Part shown: piece by piece, positions 39,450 through 55,332 of the stretch
Numbering within the stretch: the stretch's first letter is position 1
Layout: the number at the start of each line of letters is the position of its first letter
Source: Cyclobacteriaceae bacterium
GTDB taxonomy: Bacteria; Bacteroidota; Bacteroidia; Cytophagales; Cyclobacteriaceae
Length of the DNA: 64,000 bases
Reading direction: 5' to 3'
Assembly: GCA_016787645.1 (NCBI GenBank)
Contig: JAEUUF010000016.1
Coordinates: 62,001-126,000, forward strand
Notes under the pieces: model-generated
What the model was told of the DNA's origin: nothing
The model's input: the letters and a program-made list of their open reading frames with translations, nothing else
Databases searched by the model: none
Translations under genes and position numbers: made by a program

Positions 39450-39821
39450 ATGCCTGACTTCATCTACGACAAGAAACTCTATTATAACCCCGTGGAATTT
39501 GCCATGGACCGCATTGGCGGTACCTGGAAGATGCCGCTCTTGTGGAGGCTCCGGGAGAAAACGCTTCGATACGGGGAGCTGAAAAAGGAACTTCCGCACA
39601 TCACGCACAAAATGTTATCGTCGGTATTGCGGGAATTGGAGGCCGAAGGATTCATTACGAGAAAAGTATACCCGGTTGTCCCACCCAAAGTCGAGTATAC
39701 CATCACCCCCAGGGGAAGGCGGGTTATCCCTATCATCGAAGTAATTCGGAGTTTTGGTACGGACCTGATGAAGGAGTTCGGTGTGAAAGAAAGTAAAAGC
39801 GTAAAGGAGAAGAAGAATTAG
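39450..39821 (+). CDS. HxlR-family winged-helix regulator lacking the N-terminal Cys
   Basis: A 123-residue HxlR regulator: NPVEFAMDRIGGTWKMPLLWRL is the family entry motif, followed by the recognition region HKMLSSVLRELEAEGFITRKVY and the wing VEYTITPRGR. Redox/electrophile-sensing relatives (HypR, YodB) have a Cys directly before P-V; here the residue is Asn, so sensing must differ. Divergent from the DJ-1/hydrolase operon, 179 bases apart. Its stop abuts the stop of the convergent PfpI gene with no gap. Confidence 0.9.
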   Translation: MPDFIYDKKLYYNPVEFAMDRIGGTWKMPLLWRLREKTLRYGELKKELPHITHKMLSSVLRELEAEGFITRKVYPVVPPKVEYTITPRGRRVIPIIEVIRSFGTDLMKEFGVKESKSVKEKKN

Positions 39822-40430
39822 TTATTCCTTCCAGGCGTCATACTGCATGTATGCCGCCGTCTCACGGGCCACTTCAACACCCTGCAACCGCGCCACCAGG
39901 TAGAGCGACATGTCAATGCCGGCTGCGACTCCTGCGGAAATAATCACCTTCCCGTTATCTATCCACCGCTTTTCCGGCGAGATGCGGATAGCAGGCGAAA
40001 TAGAACGGAGCGCATCCATGGCGAGGTAATGGGTGGTGGCTTCCAGGTTTTCGAGAAGACCGGCTTTGCCGAGAATCAATGCTCCAGTGCAGACGCTCAA
40101 TACATTTTCTGCCACAGTGGCTCGCTGACGCACCCAGTCAAGCATTACCGCGTTATTCATTTCGCGACGACTGCCAAATGGGGTTCCATCCGGTTGATAT
40201 CCTCCCCCGCCAGGCACGAGGAACATTGAACACGGTGGGCAGTTCTGAAACGTGTAGGTAGGTGTAATCACCAGGTTGTTCCGCGCCGCAACCCGTTCGG
40301 TTTGAGCTACGGTGAACACCTCGTAGGGCTCACCCATCGAGCGCCGGCCAGTCACTGAAAATACCTCGAAAGGCCCCGCGAAATCAAGGACTTCAACCTC
40401 GTCAAACAGCACAATAGCGATCGATTTCAT
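39822..40430 (-). CDS. DJ-1/PfpI family protein (isonitrile hydratase-like)
   Basis: A 202-residue cytoplasmic single-domain protein: IVLFDEVEVLDFAGPFEVF, FLVPGGGGYQP, and the nucleophile elbow VLSVCTGALILGKAGLL, which matches the GATase1_AraC/isonitrile hydratase branch rather than glyoxalase Hsp31. Glu in FDEVEVLD region and Cys are present. Activity uncertain. Divergent from the aldo/keto reductase gene, 68 bases apart. Confidence 0.85.
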   Translation of the reverse strand: MKSIAIVLFDEVEVLDFAGPFEVFSVTGRRSMGEPYEVFTVAQTERVAARNNLVITPTYTFQNCPPCSMFLVPGGGGYQPDGTPFGSRREMNNAVMLDWVRQRATVAENVLSVCTGALILGKAGLLENLEATTHYLAMDALRSISPAIRISPEKRWIDNGKVIISAGVAAGIDMSLYLVARLQGVEVARETAAYMQYDAWKE

Positions 40431-40498
40431 CAGCGACTGAAAACTTTTTCTCTTCCTTTGTGATTATAAAGCTATTCAATTCATCCAATCACCGCATC

Positions 40499-41518
40499 AT
40501 GAACTATCACCTCTTTGGCCATTCCGGCCTCCGTGTCTCTGAACTCTCCCTGGGTACGATGGGTTTTGGCACCGAATGGAAGTGGGGTGCTGACCGGGAA
40601 GGCAGCCAAAAAATATTTGACCTGTACGCTCACGCGGGCGGCAATTTCATAGACACGGCGAACCGGTACACCGAGGGGACATCAGAAAAGTTCATAGGAG
40701 AATTTATCGCCGCAGACCGGGATCATTTCGTGGTAGCCACCAAGTATTCACTGCGTGACCGGCCCGGCGATCTGAATTTCTCCGGCAATCACCGCAAGAA
40801 CATGATGCGTAGCGTCCGCGAAAGCCTCAAGCGACTAAATACCGAATTTATCGATGTGCTGTGGGTCCACGCGTGGGACGGGTGGACACCAGCCGAAGAA
40901 ATTATGCGTGGCCTTGATGACTTGATCAGTCGCGGGTGGGTGCACTATATCGGAGTCAGTGATACTCCGGCCTGGGTGGTGAGCCAGGCGAATACCCTCG
41001 CCGAGCTGCGCGGGTGGAATCGCTTTGCCGGTTTGCAAATCGAGTACAACCTTCTTCAGCGCACCGTGGAACCTGAACTCCTGCCGATGGCCAAAGCGTT
41101 CAACCTCACGGTTACTCCCTGGGCACCGCTGGCGGGTGGAGCGCTGACCGGAAAGTACCTGAAAGGCAACCGGGGCCGGCTGCCCGAAACCAGTTCAAGG
41201 TTGTCAGAACGAGCTATCCTGATTACCCGGAAGGTCGTGGAAATTGCCGAGCGACTGGATGTCACCGGTTCGCAGGTAGCCATTAATTGGACCCGTCAGC
41301 ACAAAGGGCAATCAATGATTCCAATCGTAGGGGCAACAAAAATCAGCCAGCTGGAAGACACCCTTGGGTGCCTTGCCTGGGAATTGCCCGCTGATGCCGT
41401 AAATGAACTGAATGAGATTTCCCGCATCGAGCTCCCCTTTCCACAAAAGTTTTTTGCCGAGCCTGGTGTACTCGACGTGCTGTATGGGGGTCAAAAAGAG
41501 AAGGTGAAACATCCCTGA
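40499..41518 (+). CDS. Aldo/keto reductase
   Basis: A 339-residue AKR with the TIM-barrel motifs LGTMGFGTEW, FIDTANRYTEG (catalytic Asp and Tyr), VVATKYSL (Lys), WVHAWDGWTP (His), YNLLQRTVEPELLP and the NADPH site VGATKISQLEDTL. It reduces aldehydes or ketones with NADPH, probably detoxifying. ATG 40499 is the family start (MNYHLFGHSGLRVSEL). It ends 45 bases before the MarR gene, whose operator lies in the gap. Confidence 0.93.
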   Translation: MNYHLFGHSGLRVSELSLGTMGFGTEWKWGADREGSQKIFDLYAHAGGNFIDTANRYTEGTSEKFIGEFIAADRDHFVVATKYSLRDRPGDLNFSGNHRKNMMRSVRESLKRLNTEFIDVLWVHAWDGWTPAEEIMRGLDDLISRGWVHYIGVSDTPAWVVSQANTLAELRGWNRFAGLQIEYNLLQRTVEPELLPMAKAFNLTVTPWAPLAGGALTGKYLKGNRGRLPETSSRLSERAILITRKVVEIAERLDVTGSQVAINWTRQHKGQSMIPIVGATKISQLEDTLGCLAWELPADAVNELNEISRIELPFPQKFFAEPGVLDVLYGGQKEKVKHP

Positions 41519-41524
41519 CCTAGG

Positions 41525-41559
41525 TATTGTTGTATAGACAATAATACCCGCTACTTTTG
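41525..41559 (+). promoter_or_regulatory. marR promoter with palindromic operator over the -33 element
   Basis: TTG (41530-41532), 19 bp, TACTTTTG (41552-41559). The -33 element is inside GTTGTATAGACAAT (41529-41542), a near-perfect palindrome, itself within TATTGT (41525-41530)...ACAATA (41538-41543). It matches 12 of 14 bases of the perfect palindrome in the pirin operon promoter (51800-51813). The -7 box ends four bases before the ATG. Confidence 0.7.
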
Positions 41560-41563
41560 TTGT

Positions 41564-42043
41564 ATGGCCCTCGAAGACGAAATCCGGCAGGAGAAATTTG
41601 AAAGCGACTTTCACAAGACGGCTGTAAATATCCTGTTTACCAGCAGTTGGCTCTACAACCTCAATGCCATGCGGCTCAAGCCACATGACATCACCCCCGA
41701 ACAGTTCAATGTGTTAAGAATTTTGCGAGGCAGCCATCCTAAAGCACTCATGCTGGCTGACATTTCCTGCCGGATGATCGATAAAAGCAGCAATGCCACC
41801 CGCCTGGTGGAGAAGCTTCGCCAAAAGGGGATGGTTAGCCGGACGCAGTGTGAGAATAACCGCCGCCAGGTAGACATCCACATCACGTCCAAAGGGCTCC
41901 GCACCCTGGAGTCGATCGATAAGGAATCGAAGAACTGGACAGGAACCCTCAAGAATATTTCGAAGGAGGAAGCAAAGGAGCTTAATCGGATTCTCGACAA
42001 GCTCCGCGGCGGGAAACCGCAAAATGTAAAACGGGAAATGTAA
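41564..42043 (+). CDS. MarR-family transcriptional regulator
   Basis: A 159-residue MarR protein: N-terminal dimer helices, winged-helix core with LKPHDITPEQFNVLRILRG, recognition region DKSSNATRLVEKLRQKGMVSR and the wing NNRRQVDIHITSKG. Two cysteines (ISCRM near 69 and TQCEN near 96) could serve oxidant sensing. The palindrome over its own promoter implies autoregulation, and its copy before the pirin operon implies control of that operon. MarR genes of this type commonly neighbour pirin and YceI genes in Bacteroidota. Confidence 0.92.
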   Translation: MALEDEIRQEKFESDFHKTAVNILFTSSWLYNLNAMRLKPHDITPEQFNVLRILRGSHPKALMLADISCRMIDKSSNATRLVEKLRQKGMVSRTQCENNRRQVDIHITSKGLRTLESIDKESKNWTGTLKNISKEEAKELNRILDKLRGGKPQNVKREM

Positions 42044-42062
42044 AATGTAAAAGTGGCGTTTG

Positions 42063-42572
42063 TCAGTGCTTGCGGGCCTTGTTGGCTCGAATCATCTCTG
42101 GAAATCCCTGGCCACTTCCTAAAGCAATTACTGCCATAGTAATGCGTTTTGTTTTTGTTTCTACAGTCTTGGCCTCTTCGATCCACTTGCTAAAGTAACG
42201 CTGGTGTGATCCCGACAACGTTCTAAAATGAGAAATGGCCCGGGCATCGTCTTTCAGGCATTTCATGAAGTCGGCGGAAGGCGGGATCGTGCGCTGATCT
42301 ACCTCCAGGGAAACAGTGAGCGAATCGCCTTGTCCCTTCCCGATCGCTTTCCTCATTTTGGCGTTGAGCGGAATAATGAAAGCGCCTTCGCCCATCGGTA
42401 GAAGCGCCACTCGCTGGATCGGGTGCTGGTCCAGGGTACCCTTAACCCGGTATCCGGTCTTCTTGCCGGGGTTTAGTTTCTGGGCCTGGGATGCACTGAT
42501 CCGGATGTAGGTCCAACCCGTCTTTTCGCCCATTTTTCCAAAGCGCAGGATCTTGGTGGTGAATCGGACCAT
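42063..42572 (-). CDS. DUF1905 / YdeI-OmpD-associated domain protein
   Basis: A 169-residue cytoplasmic protein. The N-terminal DUF1905 beta domain includes TGWTYIRIS, GYRVKGTLDQHPIQRVALLPMGEGAFIIPLNAKMRKAIGKGQGDSL (conserved G-F-x-IPL-NA-R-K pattern); the C-terminal helical YdeI-like region includes SHQRYFSKWIEEAKTVETKTKRI. YdeI relatives are linked to resistance to peptides and stress in E. coli; the mechanism is unknown. ATG 42572 is preferred over a TTG two codons earlier. Confidence 0.82.
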   Translation of the reverse strand: MVRFTTKILRFGKMGEKTGWTYIRISASQAQKLNPGKKTGYRVKGTLDQHPIQRVALLPMGEGAFIIPLNAKMRKAIGKGQGDSLTVSLEVDQRTIPPSADFMKCLKDDARAISHFRTLSGSHQRYFSKWIEEAKTVETKTKRITMAVIALGSGQGFPEMIRANKARKH

Positions 42573-42594
42573 GACCAAAGATAAGGAGGCTCAA

Positions 42595-45183
42595 CTATTC
42601 GCTCCGGAGCGTCTGCGCAGGATTCTCTTTCACGACTCGTCTCATTTGCGAGCCTATCGTCAGTGCCACCGTCAGGAACATAATGGAGATGGCGACGGCA
42701 AAGGGAAATACCCCGGCAGGTTGCGGATCAGGATAGATAGCGTGAATCAGCTGGCTCATCAGAAAAAATCCTGCTGGAGCACCAACCAAAAAGGCGATTG
42801 TCAGGATCCAGGCGTAGTCGCGGTTCATCAGGCGAAAGATTTGAAGCGTGTTCGCTCCGAAAACCTTCCGTACACTGAACTCCTTGAGGCGTCGGGTAAT
42901 GTTGTAGGCCACGAGGCCAAACAACCCCAGGCACGCAAGGATGAGGGTAATGATCGCAACAGAAATGATGATGGTCATGTCGTTGCGGTTGTTGCGATTG
43001 AAGTTGTAAAAGACATCATTTTGTAAGATTCCCCGGTAGGGATCATCCGGGCCGATCTCTTTCCACAGCGTACGCATATCGGACTCAATCTGGCCGGCGT
43101 TTTCTTCCCGGGCTTTGATGGCAAGGTATCGGTAGGCAGTCTCTGGAGCCAGGGTAAACAGCGCGGGCCGAAGGCCCATATAGAAGTCATCATGGTGGAA
43201 ATCATGCACGACACCGATCACCGTCCGTTGCTTGCCATCATACATGAAGAACTGGTTGAGGCCGTCCACCCACCCCATGGCCTTCACAAAATTCTCGTTG
43301 ACGACCACCGAAGCTACCGAATCGGAAGGCATGGTACGGTCAAAGAACCGCCCGGTCTTCAGCCGGAGATTCATGGTCTCCAGGTAGTCGTAGCCCACAT
43401 CGAAGCGCAGCATCTCGAATTTGTTGCCAACGTGCTCCAATACCGTTCGTTCAGCGCTTGAGCCGATGTGATGTGCCGCGCCCGCATACTGAACAACATC
43501 CGTGCGGGTGGCTATTTTGTCGCGAAGTTTCAGGTATTGCTCCTGGTTATTCACCGGCACAACAACATTCTGATGGTGATCGTATCCCCAGTCTTTCCTG
43601 CGCATGTAAAGGCTGTTGTCAATGAAAAGAAAACAGCCGACGATCGTCATGAACGCGAGAATGAACTGCATGGTGAGCAGAATGCGGCTAAAAGCGCTGC
43701 GCTGCCCAAATTTCTCTTTGCCCTTCAGAATCTGCACCGGTTGAAAACCCGCGACATAGACTGCCGGGTACACCCCGGAAATCATGACGGTGAAGATAAG
43801 TATGCCCGTGAAGAAGGTCAGCATCATGGTCCCTGAAGAGAATGCGAATGGAATAGGATACCCCACCAGGGAGATAAGTCCCGGCATGAAAAGCAAGTAG
43901 GAAATAAGTAATCCAGCGATCACGGCAAACGCGCACATGAGGATGTTCTCCGCGATGAACTGTTGCACGATTTCCGATTTGCGTCCGCCCACCACTTTGC
44001 GTATGCCGATCTCTTTCAGCCGGGTCGTAATAGTAGCCACGGAAATGTTGGTGTAATTGAAGCAGGCCAAAAGCAGGAGCAGGAAGGCAATGACACACAT
44101 GGTGTAAATTCCCTGGGGTTGACCCGGTCCCATCATATTGCTTTCAATTTCGCCGCTGCTCGTGTTAAGATCGTCTTGACTGTAGAAGCGGAATTCTTCG
44201 ATGGGCCAGTCCGGCGAAGCTTCGTTCTGGAGTTTCTTGTATTTGGCCATCAGCGGTTGAAGCGATTCAATGGCCTGGCCCTCTTTCAGCATAACGAAGG
44301 TTGCGTCAGTCAGGTAATTCCAATCATAAACATCTTTGAGTTTCAAGCTTTGAAACACGTCCATCGAAAGAACGATGTTGAAATGCAGTGTGTTGTTGGC
44401 CGGAAGGTTGGCAACGGCGCTCACCACGAATTCGCGGGTGGCGTTGTTGGGAAATTTCATTGAGACGGTCTGGCCGACGGGATTGTGGTCGCCAAAGTAC
44501 TTTTCCGCCACGGGTTGAGTGATCACGATGCTGTTGGGGGATTTCAGCGCATCAGAAGGCACACCGAATTGGTCAAATGAAAAGATTTCAAAAAAGGCAG
44601 GATCGGTATACCATAGCCGCTCGAAGAAGACGGTTTCACCGTAGCGCAATGCCCCGTTTCCCACTTCTATCCGTGTCATTTTCTCAATGCTGGAGGCATC
44701 TTCCTGGAGCATAGGCCCCAACAAAAGTGGCGTATCACTCAGGATAACGTGGGCGCTGTCACGATTGACGATGTTGGTCACTTCATAGATGCGGTCCCGG
44801 TTCAGGTGATAGTCATCGGTATGAAACCACTGGTCAGCGAATATGAAAATGGTGATGGCCCCGGCAACACCAAGGGAAAGGCCCCCGATGTTAATCAGGG
44901 AGGTCAGGCCATTGCGGACCGCGTTGCGAAAGCCGATGAGGAGGTAATTGTAGAACATAGTCAGCGAGTAATTCTGATAGCGATCGGATGCCATTCGAAT
45001 ATTCTTTAGCCGGAAGAACCGGAATACATTCCACACAAACTGAAGCCGCGCCAACCGTAGGGATTGCCTCGCCTTCCGGTCGAAGAGCTCGTGCACATCG
45101 CCCTGGATTTCTTCCAGGCGGTCGGCCCGGCAGTACCATTCCAGGAAGCGATCCGCCCATCGGGGAGGCGCGTGTGTTTTCAT
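42595..45183 (-). CDS. FtsX/MacB-like ABC transporter permease with permease-prefix domain
   Basis: An 862-residue membrane protein. An N-terminal cytoplasmic permease-prefix domain (about 1-75; PPRWADRFLEWYCR, LEEIQGDVHELFDRKAR) is followed by two FtsX units: TM near 100, a MacB-type periplasmic domain, three TMs (about 370-490), a second periplasmic domain and three TMs at the C-terminus, with the conserved LKEIGIRKVVGGRKSEIVQQF and LKEFSVRKVFGANTLQIF coupling helices. There is no ATPase gene beside it, so it must use one encoded elsewhere. Overlaps its PadR regulator gene by four bases. Confidence 0.9.
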   Translation of the reverse strand: MKTHAPPRWADRFLEWYCRADRLEEIQGDVHELFDRKARQSLRLARLQFVWNVFRFFRLKNIRMASDRYQNYSLTMFYNYLLIGFRNAVRNGLTSLINIGGLSLGVAGAITIFIFADQWFHTDDYHLNRDRIYEVTNIVNRDSAHVILSDTPLLLGPMLQEDASSIEKMTRIEVGNGALRYGETVFFERLWYTDPAFFEIFSFDQFGVPSDALKSPNSIVITQPVAEKYFGDHNPVGQTVSMKFPNNATREFVVSAVANLPANNTLHFNIVLSMDVFQSLKLKDVYDWNYLTDATFVMLKEGQAIESLQPLMAKYKKLQNEASPDWPIEEFRFYSQDDLNTSSGEIESNMMGPGQPQGIYTMCVIAFLLLLLACFNYTNISVATITTRLKEIGIRKVVGGRKSEIVQQFIAENILMCAFAVIAGLLISYLLFMPGLISLVGYPIPFAFSSGTMMLTFFTGILIFTVMISGVYPAVYVAGFQPVQILKGKEKFGQRSAFSRILLTMQFILAFMTIVGCFLFIDNSLYMRRKDWGYDHHQNVVVPVNNQEQYLKLRDKIATRTDVVQYAGAAHHIGSSAERTVLEHVGNKFEMLRFDVGYDYLETMNLRLKTGRFFDRTMPSDSVASVVVNENFVKAMGWVDGLNQFFMYDGKQRTVIGVVHDFHHDDFYMGLRPALFTLAPETAYRYLAIKAREENAGQIESDMRTLWKEIGPDDPYRGILQNDVFYNFNRNNRNDMTIIISVAIITLILACLGLFGLVAYNITRRLKEFSVRKVFGANTLQIFRLMNRDYAWILTIAFLVGAPAGFFLMSQLIHAIYPDPQPAGVFPFAVAISIMFLTVALTIGSQMRRVVKENPAQTLRSE

Positions 45184-45518
45184 GCCAATCGGAACTGCAA
45201 AGCCACCTTGGGTATCTGATTGAATAGTTGAGTTCTTAATTCATTTGCGTCTTCCAGCGCGCGTTTGCCTGCAGCGGTAAGTAGAAAAATGCGTTTTCTA
45301 CGCCCGCCGCGTTCCTCGGTGGGTTCACTCATTCGGGACTTCAGCAATCCTTTGTCTTCCAGGCGGGTGAGTACCGAGTGGGCCGCGCTGATATTGAGAC
45401 TCCTCCCGGTTTGTTTTTCGATTTCATCCATTACAGCCACTCCATAGGCGTTGGGGTGCAGGATGCCAACATGCAGCAGGACAAGTTCTTCCAGCTCACC
45501 AAGATAGGTTCCTTTCAT
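45180..45518 (-). CDS. PadR-family transcriptional regulator
   Basis: A 112-residue PadR: GTYLGELEELVLLHVGILHPNAYGV is the typical N-terminus, followed by ISAAHSVLTRLEDKGLLKSRM and the wing GGRRKRIFLLTAAGKRAL. PadR genes in this position repress the downstream permease. An inverted repeat GTGAAA (45561-45566)...TTTCAC (45579-45584) lies about 43 bases upstream of the start and is a possible operator, though weakly supported. Confidence 0.9.
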   Translation of the reverse strand: MKGTYLGELEELVLLHVGILHPNAYGVAVMDEIEKQTGRSLNISAAHSVLTRLEDKGLLKSRMSEPTEERGGRRKRIFLLTAAGKRALEDANELRTQLFNQIPKVALQFRLA

Positions 45519-45699
45519 ACGTGTAAATTTTCGGTTAGGTCAGGTAATAGTTCTGCAAACGTGAAAGAAATGGCTATGTTTCACTTTTGTGGAAGAAATT
45601 CACCCGGGAACACAGAGAAACCTCATGGAAGGCAGAATCAATTATTTTTCAGGCTCGACCGTCTGACCCAAATCAGTACAAATCCAACACACCATTCCT

Positions 45700-45720
45700 T
45701 ATATTTGGTTTCTACCAAAT
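45700..45720 (+). promoter_or_regulatory. -7 box TATATTTG with overlapping hairpin
   Basis: TATATTTG (45700-45707) matches TAnnTTTG. It overlaps a perfect inverted repeat ATTTGGT (45703-45709), TTCT, ACCAAAT (45714-45720) that would sit at the transcription start, 10 bases before the ATG at 45730. Operator or 5' hairpin. Confidence 0.5.
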
Positions 45721-45729
45721 CCTGACCCA

Positions 45730-48700
45730 ATGAGAACTTCACCTGATTTTCGAACGCTATTTACCATGGCCTTTCTTCTGCTCTTCGCCACGTCAGTGGC
45801 TCAGACGCTGAAGCCCGAAGAAATCGATCAACTTAAATTCCGCCACATTGGCCCGATTGGAAACCGGGTAACCTGTGTTGCCGGCGTCCCCGGCAACGAT
45901 ATGGTTTATATCGTCGGTGCAGCCACCGGTGGTGTGTGGAAAACGGTTGATGGAGGATTGAGCTGGAAGGCCGTGTTTGACAAAGAGAATGTACATGCGA
46001 TCGGCGCAGTGGCCATATCCATGTCCGACCCGCGGGTCGTATACGTTGGCACAGGCGAGAGTTCCATTCGCTCCAACATCTCCATCGGCAATGGAGTCTA
46101 TAAATCAACCGACGGCGGCGAAACGTGGTCGCTGGTAGGCCTGGAGAATTCCGGCCGCGTGAGCCGGATCATCGTTCATCCTACCAACCCGGATATCGCC
46201 TGGGTGGGAGCGCTCGGTCATGCCTATGCCCCTCAAAAAGAACGCGGTCTCTACAAGACGACCGATGGGGGTAAGAGTTGGAAACAAGTGCTGTTTGTGG
46301 ACGAGAATACCGGCGTATCGGACATGACCATAGACCTGACGAACCCGCGTATCCTGTTTGCCGGGTTGTGGCAGTTGTCATTGAAAACCTGGAACCGCAC
46401 CAGCGGAGGCACAGGCAGCGGATTATATATGTCGAAAGACGGAGGAGACACCTGGACACGCCTGAAGGGCGCCGGGCTGCCGGAAACACCGGTTGGTAAA
46501 ATCTCGGTAAGCATGACGCCGGCTGCACCCGACCGTGTCTACGCCCTCATTGAAACGGGCGACGGCCTGGAGAAAATTGGCGACAAAGGCGAAACCGGCG
46601 AACTGTGGAGATCCGACGACAAGGGAAAATCCTGGCGCATGATCAATGCCAACCGCAACCTCACCGGGCGGCAGGCTTATTATACCCGGGTCGCGGCATC
46701 TCCCGACCAGATCAATGACGTGTACTTCATCTCGTCCACGTTCTTTAGCAGCATTGATGGCGGGCGATCCATCGAGCCCATCATGGATTTTCTGAGCCAG
46801 CCGAACTGGGATCACCACGAGATGTGGATTGATCCAACCAATGGCAATCGCATGTCGGTCGCTGGTGACGGTGGTATCTCCATTTCCAAGAACCGCGGGA
46901 AGACATGGCAGCGCACAATCCTGCCCGTTGCTCAATTATATCACGTAACCGTTGACAACGCCATTCCCTACAATGTGCTCACCAACCGCCAGGATGGACC
47001 TTCCATGCGTGGCCCCAGCCGGAGCAACACAGGCGGATTCTTCAACCTGGGAATTGCCACGGGCATGTGGCATGACGTAGGCGGCGGAGAAAGTGGTTTC
47101 GCCACACCCGATCCCAAGGATCCTAACATTGTTTATTCCAGTGCGTCTGGAACCGGGGCAGTTGGTGGAGTAGTGGTTCGATTCAATGAGAAGACACGCC
47201 AATATCGCCAGGTTGAAATATGGCCTGAATACACTGCCGGTCATCCGGCCAGCGAAGTGAAGTACCGCTTCCAGTGGACATTCCCGCTGCTCATCAGCCC
47301 GCATAACAACAATACTCTTTATGCGACCAGCCAGGTAGTTCATCGTACCACCAATGGCGGGCAGACCTGGGAAGTAATCAGTCCGGATCTGACACTCAAT
47401 GACAAAAACATGCAAAAGATGTCGGGCGGATTGACCCCCGACAACATTGGCGTTGAATATGCCAACGTGATCTATGCTTTTGAAGAGTCACCGGTGAAAC
47501 AGGGATTATTCTGGGCCGGGACAAATGACGGACAAGTACAGGTAAGCCGGGATGGCGGAAAAAGCTGGTCTAATGAGACGAAAAGTATTCCGGAACTGCC
47601 GCCGCTGGGAACCGTGCGAAACATTGAGGCCTCGAAGTGGAGCGAAGGCAAAGCTTACATTACCGTGGATTTGCATGAAGTAGGCAACTTCCAGCCGTTC
47701 GTATATCGCACTACCGATTTTGGGAAGACCTGGAAGAAAATTGTGAAAGGAATTCAGCCTGGCAATCTCAACTACTGCCGAAATATCAAGGAAGATCCGA
47801 TTCGCAAGGGTTTGCTTTATCTCGGTACAGAGAGCACACTTTACATTTCATTCGATGATGGCGAGAACTGGTCGGTGTTCATGCCGAACCTTCCTCATAC
47901 GCCCATGTACTGGCTCGAAGTGCAGGAACATTTCAACGACCTTGTTTTGGGAACTTACGGCCGCGGTGCGTGGATCCTCGATGACCTGACACCCCTGCAA
48001 CAACTTCCGGCAAATCCTTCGGCAGTGAAAGCGGCCCTCTTCAACCCGAAGGATGCTTATCGGTTCCAGTATCGCACCTCGACTATGCAAATCTTCCCGG
48101 AACCATCCACGGGCGAAGATCCACCCTATGGAGCGTCCATTAACTTCTGGGTAAATAATGACAAGGATAGCGTCAAGATTTTCATCACCGGTTCGGCCGG
48201 AGATACGGTGAAGACTTTCAAGATGAAAGGCAAGCCCGGCATCAATCGTGTTTGGTGGGACCTCCGCGGCAAAGAAGGAAAGAGCATCACGATGCGCACA
48301 TTGCCCACGGCCGGTGAGTGGGTAGGGCTCGACAAGAACCGTACCCGGAATGCCTACATCACCAACCCGATCCGCAACTTCCTGGTTCCCCCGGGCAAGT
48401 ATGGAGTAAGCATGGTGGCAGGAGATCAGAAATTCACCAGCTCGCTCAATATTGTCAAAGACCCCAGCTCGGAGGGGTCGGTGGCTGACATTCAGGCCCA
48501 AACAGAAATGTTGACCAAGTTGCAAGCTGACTACAACACGATAGCAGATATGGTCAATCAGATTGAATGGGTAAGGCGCCAGGTGTATGATTTGCGCGAT
48601 GTGCTCTCCTCGAAGGCGAAGTATAAGAACCTCGCGAAGTCGGCTGGAAAGCTGGACAGCACCTTGCAAGCAGTTGAAGGCAAGTTGGTACAGTTGAAAT

Positions 48701-48957
48701 ACACCGGCACCGGTCAGGACGACGTCCGTTACCCGGACATGCTGGCCGGCAAGCTTGGCTACCTTTTCAATGCCGTGTCTACCGGTGATTTCCCTCCCAC
48801 GGATTCACACAAAGAAGTGTATACCGTCCTGAAGGGTCGCCTCACGGAATCGCAGGCTGAATATGAAAAGGTGATGAGTACCGCGCTGGCGGATTTCCTG
48901 AAGCAACTGCAGGAGAACGATATTAAACCGATTGTGGCAGATTGGAAAAAGAAGTAG
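45730..48957 (+). CDS. Secreted Asp-box (sortilin/BNR-like) repeat protein
   Basis: A 1075-residue exported protein with signal peptide (ending SVAQ at about 25) and a large beta-propeller region. I count ten Asp-box-like repeats of the form S/T-x-D-G-G-x-T/S-W, e.g. VDGGLSW, TDGGETW, TDGGKSW, KDGGDTW, DDKGKSW, KNRGKTW, TNGGQTW, RDGGKSW, TDFGKTW, FDDGENW, spread over residues about 70-720. The C-terminal 250 residues have Ig-like and helical parts. It belongs to the VPS10/sortilin-like exo-proteins often labelled glycosyl hydrolase; no catalytic residues can be named. Single gene with strong terminator. Confidence 0.85.
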   Translation: MRTSPDFRTLFTMAFLLLFATSVAQTLKPEEIDQLKFRHIGPIGNRVTCVAGVPGNDMVYIVGAATGGVWKTVDGGLSWKAVFDKENVHAIGAVAISMSDPRVVYVGTGESSIRSNISIGNGVYKSTDGGETWSLVGLENSGRVSRIIVHPTNPDIAWVGALGHAYAPQKERGLYKTTDGGKSWKQVLFVDENTGVSDMTIDLTNPRILFAGLWQLSLKTWNRTSGGTGSGLYMSKDGGDTWTRLKGAGLPETPVGKISVSMTPAAPDRVYALIETGDGLEKIGDKGETGELWRSDDKGKSWRMINANRNLTGRQAYYTRVAASPDQINDVYFISSTFFSSIDGGRSIEPIMDFLSQPNWDHHEMWIDPTNGNRMSVAGDGGISISKNRGKTWQRTILPVAQLYHVTVDNAIPYNVLTNRQDGPSMRGPSRSNTGGFFNLGIATGMWHDVGGGESGFATPDPKDPNIVYSSASGTGAVGGVVVRFNEKTRQYRQVEIWPEYTAGHPASEVKYRFQWTFPLLISPHNNNTLYATSQVVHRTTNGGQTWEVISPDLTLNDKNMQKMSGGLTPDNIGVEYANVIYAFEESPVKQGLFWAGTNDGQVQVSRDGGKSWSNETKSIPELPPLGTVRNIEASKWSEGKAYITVDLHEVGNFQPFVYRTTDFGKTWKKIVKGIQPGNLNYCRNIKEDPIRKGLLYLGTESTLYISFDDGENWSVFMPNLPHTPMYWLEVQEHFNDLVLGTYGRGAWILDDLTPLQQLPANPSAVKAALFNPKDAYRFQYRTSTMQIFPEPSTGEDPPYGASINFWVNNDKDSVKIFITGSAGDTVKTFKMKGKPGINRVWWDLRGKEGKSITMRTLPTAGEWVGLDKNRTRNAYITNPIRNFLVPPGKYGVSMVAGDQKFTSSLNIVKDPSSEGSVADIQAQTEMLTKLQADYNTIADMVNQIEWVRRQVYDLRDVLSSKAKYKNLAKSAGKLDSTLQAVEGKLVQLKYTGTGQDDVRYPDMLAGKLGYLFNAVSTGDFPPTDSHKEVYTVLKGRLTESQAEYEKVMSTALADFLKQLQENDIKPIVADWKKK

Positions 48958-48971
48958 TGGTTGCTGCTTAA

Positions 48972-49013
48972 GAAATGACCCATGCGCCTGTAGTGCATGG
49001 GTCATTTCCTTTT
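48972..49013 (+). terminator. Strong intrinsic terminator
   Basis: A perfect 14-bp stem (GAAATGACCCATGC 48972-48985; GCATGGGTCATTTC 48995-49008), 9-base loop, followed by CTTTT. It ends the Asp-box protein gene 15 bases after its stop. Confidence 0.9.
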
Positions 49014-49044
49014 AAAACGGATTATTGGGTGAGCTTCTTATGGG

Positions 49045-49632
49045 TCAATTACCCTCGATTCTTACGGATGGCATTTCTGCTTCGATCACCTGATTTAAGA
49101 ATTTCATCCGGCGGTCCCCCAGGGCACTCAGAAATGGGGTAATCTCATCTTCATAGGCCCTATTCGAATAAGCAAAAATGAGTAAAGCTTTTCTGCCAGC
49201 TCCTGAATCGATTTGCCGGTATCGATAGATGTTAAATTCAACGATAGTCATGTGATCGCCTTTGCTTGCACCGAGCAAGAAATCAACAATGAACTCTTTC
49301 TGGTCAGGACTCTCGGTGATCGAGTAGTTGCAAATGGGGTCAGTCTGCTTCCTTTGTGTGAGTTCTTTCACTTTTACTTTCACTGCATCTTCTACCGGAA
49401 CTTCCGTGTCAAACAAATGAAGGGTAAGCATTTGATGGAAGGCCTCCACGGTCTCGCCGTCCGGCAGATATTCTTGAATGTAATATTTTTCATTGGGTTT
49501 GGCCGTCCATGCCAGTTTAAAATGGGTTTTGTCAAAAGTTAATGGTCCCTTCACACCCAGTCGGTCGACAGGGCTTTCAATGCCCGTGAAGGAAAGCAGT
49601 AGTGCGACCGCCAGGAGGAGCGTCAGTTTCAT
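49045..49632 (-). CDS. Exported hypothetical protein
   Basis: A 195-residue protein with an N-terminal signal peptide (MKLTLLLAVALLLSFTGIES). The remainder is a mixed alpha/beta domain with no motif that I recognise (contains one Cys, ICNYS, and IVEFNIYRYRQ). Its ATG overlaps the stop of the upstream alpha-amylase gene by four bases, so it is translated from the same mRNA and may act in the same periplasmic process. Confidence 0.65.
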   Translation of the reverse strand: MKLTLLLAVALLLSFTGIESPVDRLGVKGPLTFDKTHFKLAWTAKPNEKYYIQEYLPDGETVEAFHQMLTLHLFDTEVPVEDAVKVKVKELTQRKQTDPICNYSITESPDQKEFIVDFLLGASKGDHMTIVEFNIYRYRQIDSGAGRKALLIFAYSNRAYEDEITPFLSALGDRRMKFLNQVIEAEMPSVRIEGN

Positions 49633-50990
49633 TTTGCTTTGTCGGATTTAGAACGGCCTGCCACATACTCGTACACTGCATAACCCCACGGGCCTATGGA
49701 CACTGGTTTTGTGGTGAGGGTTTCCTTGCGGGACTCAAAGACATTGTAAACCTGGCCCGTCAAGGACTTGTCAGTGATCGTAGTGGGCTGTTGCGATCCT
49801 GAAAAATTCAGGATGACCAGCACTTTGTTCTTTCCCTTTTCACGAATAAACGCGTAAACAGCCTTATCATCGCCTATACTGACTTTTCGGAATGACCCGT
49901 CAGAAGCCAACGCGCTGTTGCGTTCCCGGAGAGAAAGCAACGTTTTATAAAAGGGGGCTCGTTCAAACTTTTGAAAAACCATGGGGTCTTTGTCAAAGAA
50001 CTTCAGGGGACGCAAGACCGGTTCTTCTTGTCCGTTGTAGATCAGTGGGACACTGTTCGCCATAGTTTGCGTGAAGACGGCGAAAGGAGCGTGCACGGAG
50101 CCGGGGAAAGTTCCGTAGTCGGCTTTGTTCCAGCTGTTCTCGTCATGATTGGAAGTAAAGTACATCTGGATAGTGCCCGATGGATAGAGTCGGTCTTGTT
50201 CAGCGTGGATGCTGTCGAGGCCGGTTGCAGTGCGTGTTCCTTTGGCCACTTTTTCCATCATTTTGAACATGTGCCAGGGATATACCGCGTCGAAACCACT
50301 CTGCGGAAGATAGGCGTTGTCTCCTTCGGCCAACATGAAGATGGATTTCATTTGCTTCAATTGTGGAATGGCCCGCTGCCAGAAGGAGCCGGGAACATTC
50401 CAGGCCACGTCGCATCGAAACCCATCAATGTCCGCCCGGGTGATCCAATATTTCATAGCCGCAATCATGCTGTCTTGCATCACGGTGTTCTTGTAGTTCA
50501 ATTGCCGGGTGTCGGCCCAGTCAACCGCAATGGCCGCTCTACCAAGACTGTCTTTTACAAAGAAATCCGGCTGCTGGGTTAACCAGCGATGATCGCCACC
50601 GGTATGGTTGGGCACCCAATCGATGATCACTTTCATTCCCCGATCATGGCTGGCCTTGACCAGTTTAATGAAATCGTCCATGGTTCCGAACTCAGGATTG
50701 AGAGCAGTGTAGTCAGATACGGCATAGTAACTTCCGAGGGAACCCTTACGATCCACGTGGCTGATCGGGTTGATTGGCATGAACCAAAGTGTTTGTACAC
50801 CCATATTCTTCAGCCGATCCAGGTGTTTGGCAAATGCATTTAACGTCCCTTCATCGGTGTACTGGCGGACATTGACTTCATAGATATTTCCTTGCAGAAT
50901 CCATGGGGGATGTTGTTGGTTGGCCGCAACCTGGCCAAATCCCTGCCGAAGGACTAATTGAAGGAGGAGAAGAAGGATTACTCTTTTCAT
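49629..50990 (-). CDS. Alpha-amylase family glycosidase (GH13), exported
   Basis: A 453-residue enzyme with signal peptide (MKRVILLLLLQLVLRQGFGQ). GH13 regions are all present: IIDWVPNHTGGDH, DGFRCDVAWN with nucleophile Asp194, MLAEGD with acid/base Glu222, and TSNHDENSW with the stabilising Asp283. A C-terminal beta domain (LVILNFSGSQQP) follows the barrel. It cleaves alpha-glucan or related maltooligosaccharide bonds in the periplasm. First gene of a two-gene unit. Confidence 0.93.
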   Translation of the reverse strand: MKRVILLLLLQLVLRQGFGQVAANQQHPPWILQGNIYEVNVRQYTDEGTLNAFAKHLDRLKNMGVQTLWFMPINPISHVDRKGSLGSYYAVSDYTALNPEFGTMDDFIKLVKASHDRGMKVIIDWVPNHTGGDHRWLTQQPDFFVKDSLGRAAIAVDWADTRQLNYKNTVMQDSMIAAMKYWITRADIDGFRCDVAWNVPGSFWQRAIPQLKQMKSIFMLAEGDNAYLPQSGFDAVYPWHMFKMMEKVAKGTRTATGLDSIHAEQDRLYPSGTIQMYFTSNHDENSWNKADYGTFPGSVHAPFAVFTQTMANSVPLIYNGQEEPVLRPLKFFDKDPMVFQKFERAPFYKTLLSLRERNSALASDGSFRKVSIGDDKAVYAFIREKGKNKVLVILNFSGSQQPTTITDKSLTGQVYNVFESRKETLTTKPVSIGPWGYAVYEYVAGRSKSDKAK

Positions 50991-51079
50991 TCTGTTAAAT
51001 TAATATTTATTAGCTATCGAATTGGCTAACCCTGTTGCCCATTTTAAACCTTCGTTTCGATCTAACCTAACTACCCTCC

Positions 51080-51754
51080 ATGAATACAACCAACCCCTTT
51101 CGCCTGACCGCCGCCACGGCCATTGGATTGCTCATCTCCCTCTTCGGGCTTGCCTTCTTTGCCATTTGGTACCGCGACTGGTATGGCATTAGTATCTCAT
51201 CTGTGCTGGTGCGTGAAGGACTGATCTTTGTTCTCGTTGGAATTCTCTTGTTCATTATACGCCTGGAAGGCCTTGGGCTGGAATCGGTCGGTCTGAAATT
51301 CAGTTCGATCGGAAAGTCGGTTGGCTTGGCCTTGCTGATTTGCTTAATTTCCATCGCAGGCGTCTTGCTATGCATAGTGCTCATGCAATACCTGGGATGG
51401 AAGGTGGGAGGGGAAGAGGCTGGCGCCTACAAGGATATCCCGGTGTGGGCTCTCTTTATCATGGTGCTTCGGGCGGGTATTGCCGAAGAGCTGTTTTATC
51501 GTGGTTATGCGATTGAGCGTATCAAAGCGCTTACCGGCAGCCAGTGGGTGGCGATTGCGGTTCCCCTCCTGATATTTTCCATTGGCCATTTTCGGCAGGG
51601 ACCAGGGGGTATACTCATTTCTTTTGTGGCCGGAGCGATTCTTACGGCCACCTACCTCTGGAAAAAGGACCTGCTGGCCAACATGATTGCACACTTCCTC
51701 GTCGACTTCATTCCTAATGTTGCCTTGCCACTGCTGGGCGTGGACAATAGCTAG
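51080..51754 (+). CDS. CPBP family intramembrane glutamic endopeptidase
   Basis: A 224-residue membrane protein with about six to seven helices and the Abi/CAAX-protease motifs: EELFYRG (Glu136, Glu137, Arg141), a conserved His in SIGHFRQG, and a C-terminal NMIAHFLVDF. Family members cleave within the membrane or protect against self-made bacteriocins; some process prenylated proteins. Single gene between a minus-strand amylase and the pirin operon. Confidence 0.9.
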   Translation: MNTTNPFRLTAATAIGLLISLFGLAFFAIWYRDWYGISISSVLVREGLIFVLVGILLFIIRLEGLGLESVGLKFSSIGKSVGLALLICLISIAGVLLCIVLMQYLGWKVGGEEAGAYKDIPVWALFIMVLRAGIAEELFYRGYAIERIKALTGSQWVAIAVPLLIFSIGHFRQGPGGILISFVAGAILTATYLWKKDLLANMIAHFLVDFIPNVALPLLGVDNS

Positions 51755-51799
51755 TACAGCGTGATTTTCCCCACCGCCCTGAACTTTTGGACTTGAATA

Positions 51800-51830
51800 G
51801 TTGTATATACAACAATGGTATATAACTTTA
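51800..51830 (+). promoter_or_regulatory. Pirin operon promoter with perfect MarR-type palindrome
   Basis: GTTGTATATACAAC (51800-51813) is a perfect 14-bp palindrome containing the -33 TTG (51801-51803). After 19 bp comes TAACTTTA (51823-51830), one base off the -7 consensus. The geometry is the same as at the marR promoter (41525-41559). The first gene starts at 51854. Confidence 0.72.
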
Positions 51831-51853: not shown

Positions 51854-52576
51854 ATGAAAACCGTCATTCACAAAGCCGAAACCCGGGGTCACGCCAATCA
51901 CGGCTGGCTTGATTCGTATCACACCTTCAGCTTCGCGGGATATTATGAGCCCTACCGCGTCCACTTTGGGCTCCTGCGGGTGCTCAACGACGATGTCGTG
52001 AAAGGCGGGATGGGCTTTGGCCAGCACCCGCACGACAATATGGAGATTGTCTCGATCCCGTTGCGGGGCGCTCTAGAGCATCGCGACAACACCGGAGGAC
52101 ACGCCATAATCAAATCCGGGGAAGTGCAGATCATGAGCGCGGGTTCGGGGATTGCCCACAGTGAAAAAAACGCATCCGCTTCGGAGGAAGTGAACTTCCT
52201 TCAGATCTGGGTATTTCCCAAGGAAAGAAATATTCAGCCACGGTATGAGCAGCGTGTATTCGCCAAGGCAGACCGCGTCAATAAACTTCAAACCGTAGTG
52301 TCACCAGGCAAAGAAAACGGTGCGCTCTGGATCAACCAGGACGCATGGTTCAGCCTGGCAGATATCTCTCAAGGAACAAGCCTTGAGTATACGTTGCGGA
52401 AGAAGGGGAGCGGTGTCTACGTGTTTGTGATCGAAGGCACCGTCACCATAGGCACCCAGGCCCTCAACAAAAGAGATGGCCTTGGGATTTATGACACAGA
52501 AGGTTTTGTCATGGAAGCCAACCAGGATACTGAAGTGTTATTGATGGAAGTACCCATGAACGGAATTGAACGATGA
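51854..52576 (+). CDS. Pirin family protein 1
   Basis: A 240-residue bicupin. Metal-site motifs in the N-terminal cupin: GFGQHPHDNMEIVSIPLRG (two His), ALEHRDNTGG and the AHSEKN region. Bacterial pirins such as YhhW have quercetinase-like or redox-sensing roles. First gene of a six-gene operon under a MarR-type operator; coupled by ATGA overlap to a second pirin. Confidence 0.93.
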   Translation: MKTVIHKAETRGHANHGWLDSYHTFSFAGYYEPYRVHFGLLRVLNDDVVKGGMGFGQHPHDNMEIVSIPLRGALEHRDNTGGHAIIKSGEVQIMSAGSGIAHSEKNASASEEVNFLQIWVFPKERNIQPRYEQRVFAKADRVNKLQTVVSPGKENGALWINQDAWFSLADISQGTSLEYTLRKKGSGVYVFVIEGTVTIGTQALNKRDGLGIYDTEGFVMEANQDTEVLLMEVPMNGIER

Positions 52577-53442
52577 AAAACAGAACGATATCCCGGCTGC
52601 TCTATGCACACCAGGTGGACATGGGCGGCCTTCCCGTTCGCCAACCTTTGCCTACTCAGCAAGTTGGTCAGGTCGATCCCTTCCTGCTGTTGCACCACGC
52701 GGACATTAAGGTGCCATCCACGATAGAGCCAGATCATGCCGGAGTCGGGCCGCACCCGCACCGTGGGTTTTCGCCGGTCACATTTATTTTCAAAGGAGGC
52801 GTGCACCATCGGGACAGCCGGGGCAATGACAGCACGATCTATGCCGGCGGCGCTCAATGGATGAATGCCGGTCGCGGTATTATTCACAGCGAACGGCCTA
52901 CCCACGATATTCATGAAATCGGCGGACGGCAAGAAATCATCCAGTTGTGGATCAACACGCCCGCCGAACGGAAAATGGATCAACCATCGTATTTCCCGCT
53001 GGAGGCCGATAAGGTGCCCGTCGTGAAATCAGCAGATAGACAGGTGGAGGCGAGAATATTTTCGGGACAATTGTTAGGTGTGCAAGGCCCGATCCCGTCG
53101 CCTGCCGATGTGAATGCGGCCACCCTCGCGTTTGCCAAGGGTGGCAAAATCTCGGTACCTGTTCCAGCACATCATAATGCCCTGGTGTATCTGCTCGACG
53201 GAAAACTTACCGTGGAGGGATTTGGCATGGTAGAAGCTTTGCACCTGGTCCATTTCAACAATGATGGTGATGGATTGACCCTGGAAGCTTTAGAAGATAC
53301 GCGTGCCCTGGTGCTAAGCGGCGCTCCACTTCATGAAGAAGTCGTATCGTACGGTCCTTTTGTGATGAATACCCAGACGCAGATCCTCGAAGCCATGCGC
53401 GATTACCGGGTCGGCAAAATGGGTGTACTGATTGAAGAGTAA
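52573..53442 (+). CDS. Pirin family protein 2
   Basis: A 289-residue bicupin, longer than its neighbour and with the fuller pirin signature: HPHRGFSPVTFIFKGGVHHRDS, IIHSERP and a complete Pirin_C domain (IPVPAHHNALVYLLDGK-like region and FGPFVMN near the end, read here as YGPFVMNT). The HPH and HxxxxHS metal ligands are present. It is only distantly similar to pirin 1, so the two are not a recent duplication. Confidence 0.93.
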   Translation: MKNRTISRLLYAHQVDMGGLPVRQPLPTQQVGQVDPFLLLHHADIKVPSTIEPDHAGVGPHPHRGFSPVTFIFKGGVHHRDSRGNDSTIYAGGAQWMNAGRGIIHSERPTHDIHEIGGRQEIIQLWINTPAERKMDQPSYFPLEADKVPVVKSADRQVEARIFSGQLLGVQGPIPSPADVNAATLAFAKGGKISVPVPAHHNALVYLLDGKLTVEGFGMVEALHLVHFNNDGDGLTLEALEDTRALVLSGAPLHEEVVSYGPFVMNTQTQILEAMRDYRVGKMGVLIEE

Positions 53443-53459
53443 ACTATAACCTATTGATC

Positions 53460-53858
53460 ATGGAAAACAATTCTGTTCGATTTACCCCCGTACTCAAAGC
53501 GGGAATTATTGCTGGCTTTTTTGGCGTTGGACTCAACAACCTGTGGAGCCTGTTGGCGGCGGCTTTCGGAGCAACCATTCCCCCGGCCTTTGCCATTGCG
53601 GTAACCTTGTCCTCCTTGTTACCGGTGATCGTGGCCTCATTGATCTATTTTGTTCTGGCCCGGTTTACCGCCAAGGGCACGCTTATCTTTACCGTATTGG
53701 GAACAGGCTTTTTGCTTTTCAGTTTCGTTCCCATCTTTTCTACAACGCAGCTACCGGATGGTACCGCCGTTGACGACACATTTCCATTGCTGGTGGCACC
53801 GATGCACGTTATTTCAGGCGCCCTGGCCCTGTATGGCATTCCGAAGTGGTCAAGGTGA
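53460..53858 (+). CDS. Small four-helix membrane protein (DUF6069-like)
   Basis: A 132-residue integral membrane protein with about four helices (FTPVLKAGIIAGFFGVGLNN; FAIAVTLSSLLPVIVASLIYF; LIFTVLGTGFLLFSFVPIF; PMHVISGALALYGI). It resembles DUF6069 proteins, of unknown function. ATG 53460 is preferred over a TTG two codons upstream. Its place inside the redox operon suggests a role in the same stress response. Confidence 0.7.
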   Translation: MENNSVRFTPVLKAGIIAGFFGVGLNNLWSLLAAAFGATIPPAFAIAVTLSSLLPVIVASLIYFVLARFTAKGTLIFTVLGTGFLLFSFVPIFSTTQLPDGTAVDDTFPLLVAPMHVISGALALYGIPKWSR

Positions 53859-53913: not shown

Positions 53914-54495
53914 ATGATCGCCGAAATGCCTGATACCATTGAAATGCCTATCCTGGAGCCGATTGCTTCGCGCCGAAGCCGGAGGGCGTTTGCCCCGGAA
54001 ACGGTGTCACAGGATCAAATTGATACCTTGTTTGAAGCGGCGCGGTGGGCCCCGTCAAGCGTGAATGAGCAACCGTGGCGATATGTCTATGCCACCAAAG
54101 GACAACTTTTGTGGGAGACGATCTTTGAAGCGCTGAATGACGGCAACAAAGTATGGGCAAAGGAAGCCCAACTGTTCATCGTAAGCATGGCCAAAAAAGC
54201 ATTCAGCAGAAATGGGAGGCCAAATCCTACTGCCCTTTACGACCTGGGAGGTGCAAACGCTTTCCTCTCACTCCAGGCTGCCAGCATGGGGCTCAATGTT
54301 CACCAAATGGGCGGTTATGATCGCGATACACTTCGAATGAGCCTGAATATCCCGGAAGAACTGGAGCTCGGCGTAGTCATGGCTATTGGCTTCCCGGGTG
54401 ACGCGGCGCTTTTGCCCGAACCCTTGCGTACCCGTGAACTTTCGCCCCGGGTGAGGATGACCCGGTCGGAATTTGTTATGAACCAACCCTTCTGA
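53914..54495 (+). CDS. Nitroreductase family protein
   Basis: A 193-residue FMN-dependent nitroreductase: SRRSRRAFAPETVSQDQI, AARWAPSSVNEQPWRYV, and LGGANAFLSLQAASMGL with the MGGYDRD region. It reduces nitroaromatics, quinones or other electrophiles with NAD(P)H. A partner for the electrophile/oxidant defence suggested by the pirins and OsmC. Confidence 0.92.
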   Translation: MIAEMPDTIEMPILEPIASRRSRRAFAPETVSQDQIDTLFEAARWAPSSVNEQPWRYVYATKGQLLWETIFEALNDGNKVWAKEAQLFIVSMAKKAFSRNGRPNPTALYDLGGANAFLSLQAASMGLNVHQMGGYDRDTLRMSLNIPEELELGVVMAIGFPGDAALLPEPLRTRELSPRVRMTRSEFVMNQPF

Positions 54496-54496
54496 A

Positions 54497-54907
54497 ATGG
54501 AATCCAAGGAAGTTCAAACCGCGATCGCTGTTATCGGCAAAGATCATTACCGGACTACACTTCAATCGCGGACGCACACGCTGGTTGGAGATGAGCCACT
54601 TGAGATTGGAGGCAAGGACCTGGGTCCGCGCCCCGGTGATTTTGTTCGCATGGCGTTGGCGTCATGTACTGCGATTACCCTTCGGATGTATGCTGACCGA
54701 AAGCAATGGCCGGTCGACCAGATTGAAGTACGGGTATCGAACGGGCCCTTCCAAGAGAAGACAACCTATACCAGTGACATAGAAATTACGGGAAACCTCA
54801 GCGTAGAGCAGAAGGAACGGATGCTCCAGATTGCTAAATTGTGCCCGGTACATAAGACACTGACCAATCCGGTTGAGATTATCACTCACCTCTCACTGAT
54901 CCAATGA
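54497..54907 (+). CDS. OsmC family peroxiredoxin-like protein
   Basis: A 136-residue OsmC/Ohr fold protein. Two active-site cysteines are in place: MALASCTAITLRMY and AKLCPVHKTL. The family reduces organic hydroperoxides; this short branch (YhfA-like) is less studied. One base after the nitroreductase stop and overlapping the next gene by four. Confidence 0.9.
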   Translation: MESKEVQTAIAVIGKDHYRTTLQSRTHTLVGDEPLEIGGKDLGPRPGDFVRMALASCTAITLRMYADRKQWPVDQIEVRVSNGPFQEKTTYTSDIEITGNLSVEQKERMLQIAKLCPVHKTLTNPVEIITHLSLIQ

Positions 54908-55332
54908 AAGACATTGTCAAGAAATACTCCAACGGTGAAGTAACCATTGTCTGGAAACCTTCGCTTTGCATTCATTCCAGGAATTGCTTCACCGGTTTAG
55001 GTGAGGTCTTCCATCCCCAGGAACTGCCCTGGATCACCCCTCAGCGATCGACCACAGATAAGATTATCGACCAAATCAAGAAGTGCCCTTCCGGGGCGCT
55101 CAGCTATGTAATGAACAATGAGGTTCCTTCTGCCGAGGAGCCCACCGGACAAAGCACATTGGTAGAGCCTTCACCCAATGGGCCGCTGATGGTGCATGGC
55201 ACGCTTGCTATTAAGAAGCCGGACGGCACAATTACCCGCAAGGAGAAGGTTACCGCATTTTGCCGCTGCGGGGGCTCGGCCAACAAGCCCTTTTGCGACG
55301 GCACCCATCGGAAGATCGGTTTCCAGGACTAG
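54904..55332 (+). CDS. Fusion of 4Fe-4S mono-cluster (YjdI-type) and CDGSH iron-sulfur domains
   Basis: A 142-residue protein. N-terminal Fer4_19 domain with Cys22, Cys28 and Cys61 (LCIHSRNC, KKCPSGAL), and C-terminal CDGSH domain with Cys120, Cys122, Cys131 and His135 (FCRCGGSANKPFCDGTH), the usual 3Cys-1His site for a redox-active [2Fe-2S] cluster. In other bacteria these domains are often separate proteins. Last gene of the pirin operon. It may act as a redox sensor or electron donor to the nitroreductase (inference). Confidence 0.92.
   Translation: MKDIVKKYSNGEVTIVWKPSLCIHSRNCFTGLGEVFHPQELPWITPQRSTTDKIIDQIKKCPSGALSYVMNNEVPSAEEPTGQSTLVEPSPNGPLMVHGTLAIKKPDGTITRKEKVTAFCRCGGSANKPFCDGTHRKIGFQD

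Follow-up and report, generated by a model that had tools for sequence, protein, structure and literature searches.

OhrR and MhqR are the described systems closest to the circuit considered here, which lies in a 64,000-nucleotide stretch of a Cyclobacteriaceae genome (i.e., the window; contig JAEUUF010000016.1, positions 62,001 to 126,000) and comprises a marR gene, a six-gene operon beginning with two pirin genes, and a similar short palindrome at the promoter of each. OhrR, like the regulator here, belongs to the MarR family and has an OsmC/Ohr-related gene among its targets, and it carries a conserved N-terminal redox cysteine; PDB entries 2pex and 2pfb, which we take to be of the OhrR type, are weak sequence matches to the window MarR. 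MhqR, the quinone-sensing repressor of Bacillus subtilis and Staphylococcus aureus, is likewise a MarR repressor; an inverted-repeat operator lies at the promoter of the operon that encodes it and, in B. subtilis, also at further redox detoxification genes, among them that for the nitroreductase MhqN (PMC6798810, PMC12893000; here and below, statements on cited papers refer to the portions of their text covered). Bacteroides fragilis, a Bacteroidota species, also has two pirin genes, pir1 and pir2, which are induced by oxygen and, independently of FurA, by iron limitation; the text covered names no MarR regulator or operator for them, and the word "MarR" occurs once elsewhere in that paper (PMC11304471). 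A YceI-family gene near the regulator MgxR belongs to a different system, "MarR" appearing in the covered text of that paper in the reference list only (PMC4349456). Among the literature matches listed (open-licence papers, those with the 12-base variant judged by title), none described a MarR/pirin/YceI regulon or the present operator in Bacteroidota.

We consider it very probable that both palindromes serve as operators for MarR-A, the MarR protein whose gene lies at 41564-42043, which would control its own gene and the pirin operon as the local form of a class-wide regulon, with a small redox-active or electrophilic compound as the inducer. The operator is of another kind than that of MhqR, i.e., a 9-9 bp TATCTCGAA-type repeat at -6 to +12 (PMC6798810); the window sites are not of this type and instead carry TTGTAnnTACAA over the -33 element (O1), with a second site (O2) over the -7 box in part of the relatives. 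The neighbors differ as well, being pirin, OsmC, YceI, and CDGSH genes here, while the word "pirin" occurs 0 times in the two MhqR papers (PMC6798810, PMC12893000).

The earlier note on this DNA had proposed that MarR represses itself and the six-gene operon and releases on an oxidant or electrophile. Its regulatory part is backed, at the level of sequence, by conservation at both promoters, absence of the site where MarR-A is absent, adjacency of marR and pirin genes, and gene linkage across the class. The release part is conjectural. MarR-A has Cys69 and Cys96 as its only cysteines and lacks the N-terminal redox cysteine of OhrR; among 39 aligned MarR rows, N-terminal cysteines occur only in L139, a different MarR. 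The operator could link both genes while MarR-A senses an oxidant through Cys96, in the wing, acting as a thiol switch, rather than through a ligand in its pocket. We regard this as unlikely, if the most serious of the alternatives: Cys96 is present in 28 of the 39 aligned proteins (the paralogue MarR-B among them) and in 23 of 24 in the genus, but it is missing from seven of the eight class-level MarR_A-like proteins next to the operator, and MhqR, which also has a nitroreductase in its regulon, reportedly works without a thiol-based mechanism (PMC6798810) and reportedly has no conserved Cys (PMC12893000). By analogy with MhqR, a pocket ligand seems likelier for MarR-A, and an oxidant or electrophile as the inducer fits the target genes.

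Proposed operator sites and promoter register

The elements of the two promoters, and the proposed repressor gene, are as follows.

41529-41542, + strand: marR 14-mer GTTGTATAGACAAT, an imperfect palindrome; the marR start codon is 21 bases further on
41530-41541, + strand: marR operator O1 TTGTATAGACAA, one mismatch against TTGTAnnTACAA; it opens with the -33 TTG
41552-41559, + strand: -7 box of the marR promoter, TACTTTTG
41564-42043, + strand: marR (MarR-A, 159 amino acids; PF01047, E = 1.4e-10, 41.3 bits against a cut-off of 24.6), the proposed repressor
51800-51813, + strand: pirin-operon 14-mer GTTGTATATACAAC, a perfect palindrome; pirin 1 begins 40 bases later
51801-51812, + strand: pirin-operon operator O1 TTGTATATACAA, perfect; it opens with the -33 TTG
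51816-51827, + strand: degenerate second site O2 TGGTATATAACT of the pirin promoter, 15 bp past O1 and overlapping the -7 box
51823-51830, + strand: -7 box of the pirin-operon promoter, TAACTTTA

Direct reading bears out what the earlier note had described: GTTGTATAGACAAT and GTTGTATATACAAC are identical at 12 of 14 bases and differ at two, the second is a palindrome, and at both promoters a TTG within the palindrome (41530-41532 and 51801-51803) is followed by the -7 box at 19 bp. Its phrase "identical promoter geometry" holds in part. The Bacteroides promoter consensus is TAnnTTTG at -7 and TTTG at -33 (PMC2483708), and because both the TTG and the -7 box are elements of the Bacteroidota consensus, the match in geometry is partly general; the specific features are the palindrome and its register. 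At the level of sequence, the putative -33 element is TTG, with the full TTTG at neither promoter, and TAACTTTA ends in A against G in the consensus.

The marR product has a winged helix-turn-helix domain above the curated Pfam cut-off for the MarR family (PF01047), and a further family trait, a (pseudo)palindrome at its own promoter, is present by sequence at 41530-41541. In the mechanism that we propose, a MarR dimer would bind TTGTAnnTACAA and cover the -33 TTG, keeping RNA polymerase off the marR promoter and the six-gene pirin operon; a second dimer on O2, where present, would cover the -7 box. Across the class, promoters of marR, pirin, and yceI genes would carry O1 over -33, and part of them also O2 exactly 15 bp on. 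MarR would release on a small redox-active or electrophilic compound, an MhqR-style quinone or phenol being our best guess, and the operon would then detoxify or repair.

Conservation and co-occurrence with MarR-A

Matches to MarR and pirin 1 were drawn from 58 genomes (own included), and their promoters were tested, over 110 bases, for TTGTANNTACAA at one mismatch or less, with dinucleotide shuffles as the control. The site was present at 21 of 24 marR promoters of the genus (10 exact; shuffles, mean 0.28, maximum 2), a set that excludes two broken copies (G024 and G032) and one gene at a contig edge (G004). It was present at all 19 pirin promoters in genus genomes bearing MarR-A (17 exact; shuffles, mean 0.51, maximum 3). 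The comparison with relatives that the earlier note had called for found the site conserved at both promoters.

When a spacer of 8 to 26 bases between palindrome and -7 box was allowed, 40 genus genomes gave 30 matches against 9 for the reversed control, and the spacer was exactly 10 bases in 20 of the 30 (lengths entered by hand). By reading, these 20 comprised 14 pirin promoters, 5 marR promoters, and 1 promoter of an ECF-sigma-like gene. A related-loci search of genome contigs returned four loci: metagenome-assembled genomes of Cyclobacteriaceae (L073) and Flammeovirgaceae (L074) show TTGTATAGACAA and TTGTATAAACAA before marR, and two of Flavobacteriales show no such site there by eye.

Two side observations concern genes behind these promoters. 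In G010, G007, G058, G011, and G059 (L079, L083, L089, L100, and L105), pirin 1 has an operator upstream and, as read by eye from the sequence, a signal-peptide-like N-terminal extension; an exported pirin, if true, would be unusual. The operator-promoter pattern also lies ahead of ECF-sigma-like genes (by eye) in L095 (G059) and L141 (G123), and in G059 a carotenoid-desaturase-like gene (by eye) follows.

The strongest indication that MarR-A, rather than its paralogue MarR-B, reads the site is the co-occurrence of regulator and site. The genus set comprised 36 genomes, the window's own among them; 11 of these yielded no pirin 1 orthologue and in one (G026) the upstream region falls outside the contig, so that 24 could be scored. 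A MarR was counted as MarR-A at an identity of at least 57%, other matches in the genus being at most 45% (broken or partial copies aside), and G004 was counted as bearing MarR-A. All 19 genomes with MarR-A carry the site at the pirin promoter, against 0 of 5 without it (Fisher p, 2.4e-5, kinship ignored). On the pirin tree the five genomes without MarR-A fall in two places, i.e., a clade of G001, G002, G003, and G033, and G025, which is sister to G010/G011; the latter two keep both MarR-A and the site. The tree requires two separate changes for this distribution. Four of the five genomes are 96 to 100% complete.

Another regulator might read the operator, alone or together with MarR-A, and the first to consider is the paralogue MarR-B (G000:C15:599631-600080; L108:5632-6078), which is 42% identical to MarR-A and has similar matches in many genus genomes. 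It is the only other protein of the window's genome that matches the query or exceeds the Pfam MarR cut-off, and an overlap in specificity between the two is conceivable. Each of the five genomes without MarR-A and the operator, however, keeps a MarR 39 to 44% identical to the query, which by identity we take to be of the MarR-B kind. The motif was not found at the MarR-B promoter in the window's genome (best, 3 mismatches across 400 bases), and class-wide it often adjoins MarR_A-like genes. Reading by another regulator is therefore improbable, and, because those five genomes retain a MarR-B-like protein, MarR-A rather than MarR-B appears to read the site.

Confinement and class-wide occurrence

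In the window, GTTGTATANACAAY with at most two mismatches gave 7 strand-matches against a shuffle mean of 1.32, and 0 of 100 shuffles reached 7. Four of these are the two sites on both strands, one lies inside marR, and two (9021 and 18979) lie inside other open reading frames and were ruled out as operators on that ground. Over the whole genome (4,016,998 bases in 28 contigs), the scan suggested in the earlier note placed the exact 14-mer pattern at the two promoters only, and all six one-mismatch matches fell within predicted frames. TTGTANNTACAA occurred once, at the pirin promoter, against four places for its reversed control, and TTGTANNTACAA-N10-TANNTTTR with at most two mismatches matched just these two promoters, one with 0 mismatches and the other with 1. 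As the two sites themselves supplied the pattern, confinement to them is by itself no proof of function, and the real evidence against chance is therefore the conservation in relatives.

A search with fixed geometry in 295 genomes of the class gave 24 matches against 5 for the reversed control. Ten of the 24 adjoin MarR_A-like, pirin, or DUF6069 genes (i.e., families of the window only); the count rises to 13 once YceI and FMN reductase neighbors are added, a figure that is partly circular, as are all linkage counts using the YceI, FMN reductase, and OYE references, which were taken from the 24 matches. An alignment of promoters revealed the putative second site. A TGT lies 15 bp after O1 in 16 of 19 genus pirin promoters (the next-best offset, 19, has 8), and at that offset in 7 of the 13 family-linked class promoters and in 0 of the 11 others. 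TACA, whose TA is fixed by the search pattern, occurs in the right arm of O2 in 9 of 13 family-linked and 2 of 11 other class promoters. The double pattern O1-O2 gave 15 matches in 14 genomes among 396, against 0 for the reversed control, L176 and L187 being examples of loci with such a promoter; 14 of the 15 stand beside pirin, YceI, MarR_A-like, or DUF6069 genes. Seven of the 15 were already among the 24 fixed-geometry matches, and of the 8 new ones 7 are linked to the named genes.

The in-phase double operator of relatives is the most unusual trait of the system. We give about even chances to a Bacteroidota regulon in which a tandem promoter-embedded operator would let one MarR subfamily control pirin, YceI, nitroreductase, OsmC, and CDGSH genes, with O1 over -33, O2 15 bp on over -7, and two dimers masking both sigma contacts. 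Three neighbors are to be labeled with care: one in L155 is a sedoheptulose-7-phosphate isomerase and not an MhqD-like hydrolase, one in L163 may resemble MhqO (Pfam gives just Glyoxalase), and a 132-amino-acid protein labeled DoxX has no Pfam or NCBIfam match, so that the label was not used as evidence.

Several results weigh against control by MarR-A through these sites. Three of the 24 genus marR promoters fail, i.e., those of G006 and G017 (two mismatches) and of G008 (three), and G008 retains MarR-A yet has no recognizable site at its marR promoter; the broken marR of G024 also has three mismatches there. Among 22 parsed MarR promoters from the order-level search (24 loci, two without a parsed marR frame; orthologues and paralogues mixed; one a genus member), only 7 carry the site at one mismatch or less, and 2 of these 7 look spurious. 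The operator drifts outside the genus, L173 and L175 carrying ATGTAnnTACAT. Fisher's p overstates independence because the genomes are related, and one of the five genomes without MarR-A (G003) is only 77% complete. In the window's genome, the reversed control of TTGTANNTACAA-N10-TANNTTTR yields 4 matches at two mismatches or less, and the count alone is thus no excess. Eleven of the 24 class matches are unlinked to the families named. As for O2, TGT stands at its offset in just 5 of 23 genus marR promoters, 0 of 19 genus pirin promoters have TACA in the right arm, only the left arm being conserved there, and in the window it is a degenerate site at the pirin promoter and unrecognizable at that of marR. 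This last difference might be in keeping with the operon being repressed more tightly than marR.

That the similarity is wholly an artefact of the general Bacteroidota consensus and chance AT-rich palindromes is most improbable and was rejected on conservation, co-occurrence, and the class-wide controls: the TTG and -7 box do belong to the consensus (PMC2483708), the pattern was fitted to two sites, and its loose form is no commoner than the reversed control in the window's genome, yet the TACAA arm lies outside the consensus, is conserved at both promoters, is absent without MarR-A, and, in class-wide scans set against reversed controls, shows linkage to MarR, pirin, and YceI genes.

Gene neighborhood and biological meaning

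The six genes of the pirin operon are the following.

51854-52576, + strand: pirin 1, Pirin with a quercetinase-type C-terminal cupin (PF02678, PF17954)
52573-53442, + strand: pirin 2 (PF02678, PF05726)
53454-53858, + strand: DUF6069-like protein (PF19545, E = 0.00045, 20.7 bits, below the Pfam cut-off of 27.2)
53914-54495, + strand: nitroreductase (PF00881)
54497-54907, + strand: OsmC-like protein (PF02566)
54904-55332, + strand: Fer4_19 and CDGSH iron-sulfur protein (PF06902, PF09360)

G035 (L113) has consecutive genes, all on the same strand, for an aldo-keto reductase, MarR, pirin 1, a 98-amino-acid protein, pirin 2, DUF6069, nitroreductase, OsmC, and Fer4_19-CDGSH. The marR gene adjoins pirin 1 in G004 and G006, and the two are less than 8 kb apart in G014, G015, G017, G023, and G028. 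Since the window holds the same gene set, with about 10 kb of other genes separating marR from the pirin operon, its two promoters were plausibly once side by side. Taken together, the comparisons among genomes lend good support to a regulatory link from MarR-A to its own gene and to the pirin operon.

The interval between marR and the operon is itself partly conserved: the FtsX-like and PadR genes at 42595-45518 of the window also lie between the two in G014, G015, and G017. Adjoining marR in the window, at 39450-41518, are HxlR, DJ-1-like, and aldo-keto reductase genes, and the presence of the aldo-keto reductase next to marR both here and in G035 suggests a larger carbonyl/redox cluster. 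A protein of about 98 to 115 amino acids is encoded between pirin 1 and pirin 2 in relatives (L113:8867-9160, L109:1098-1394, L125:7291-7635, and L121:8886-9194) and is lacking from the window operon. By eye it is receiver-domain-like without the acceptor aspartate; the L113 copy had no Pfam or NCBIfam match at E 0.01.

These observations point to a widespread, otherwise ordinary stress response, the kind of circuit, i.e., a MarR autorepressor with a detoxification operon, being already known. Pirins and YceI proteins occur commonly in bacteria and are still poorly understood. The conserved operator and its regulator would join them in a single response with nitroreductase, OsmC, OYE, and FMN reductase genes, and the pair may serve as a simple handle for finding the inducing chemical and hence the function. 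The operator would also be an example of a repressor site built into the unusual promoter of Bacteroidota.

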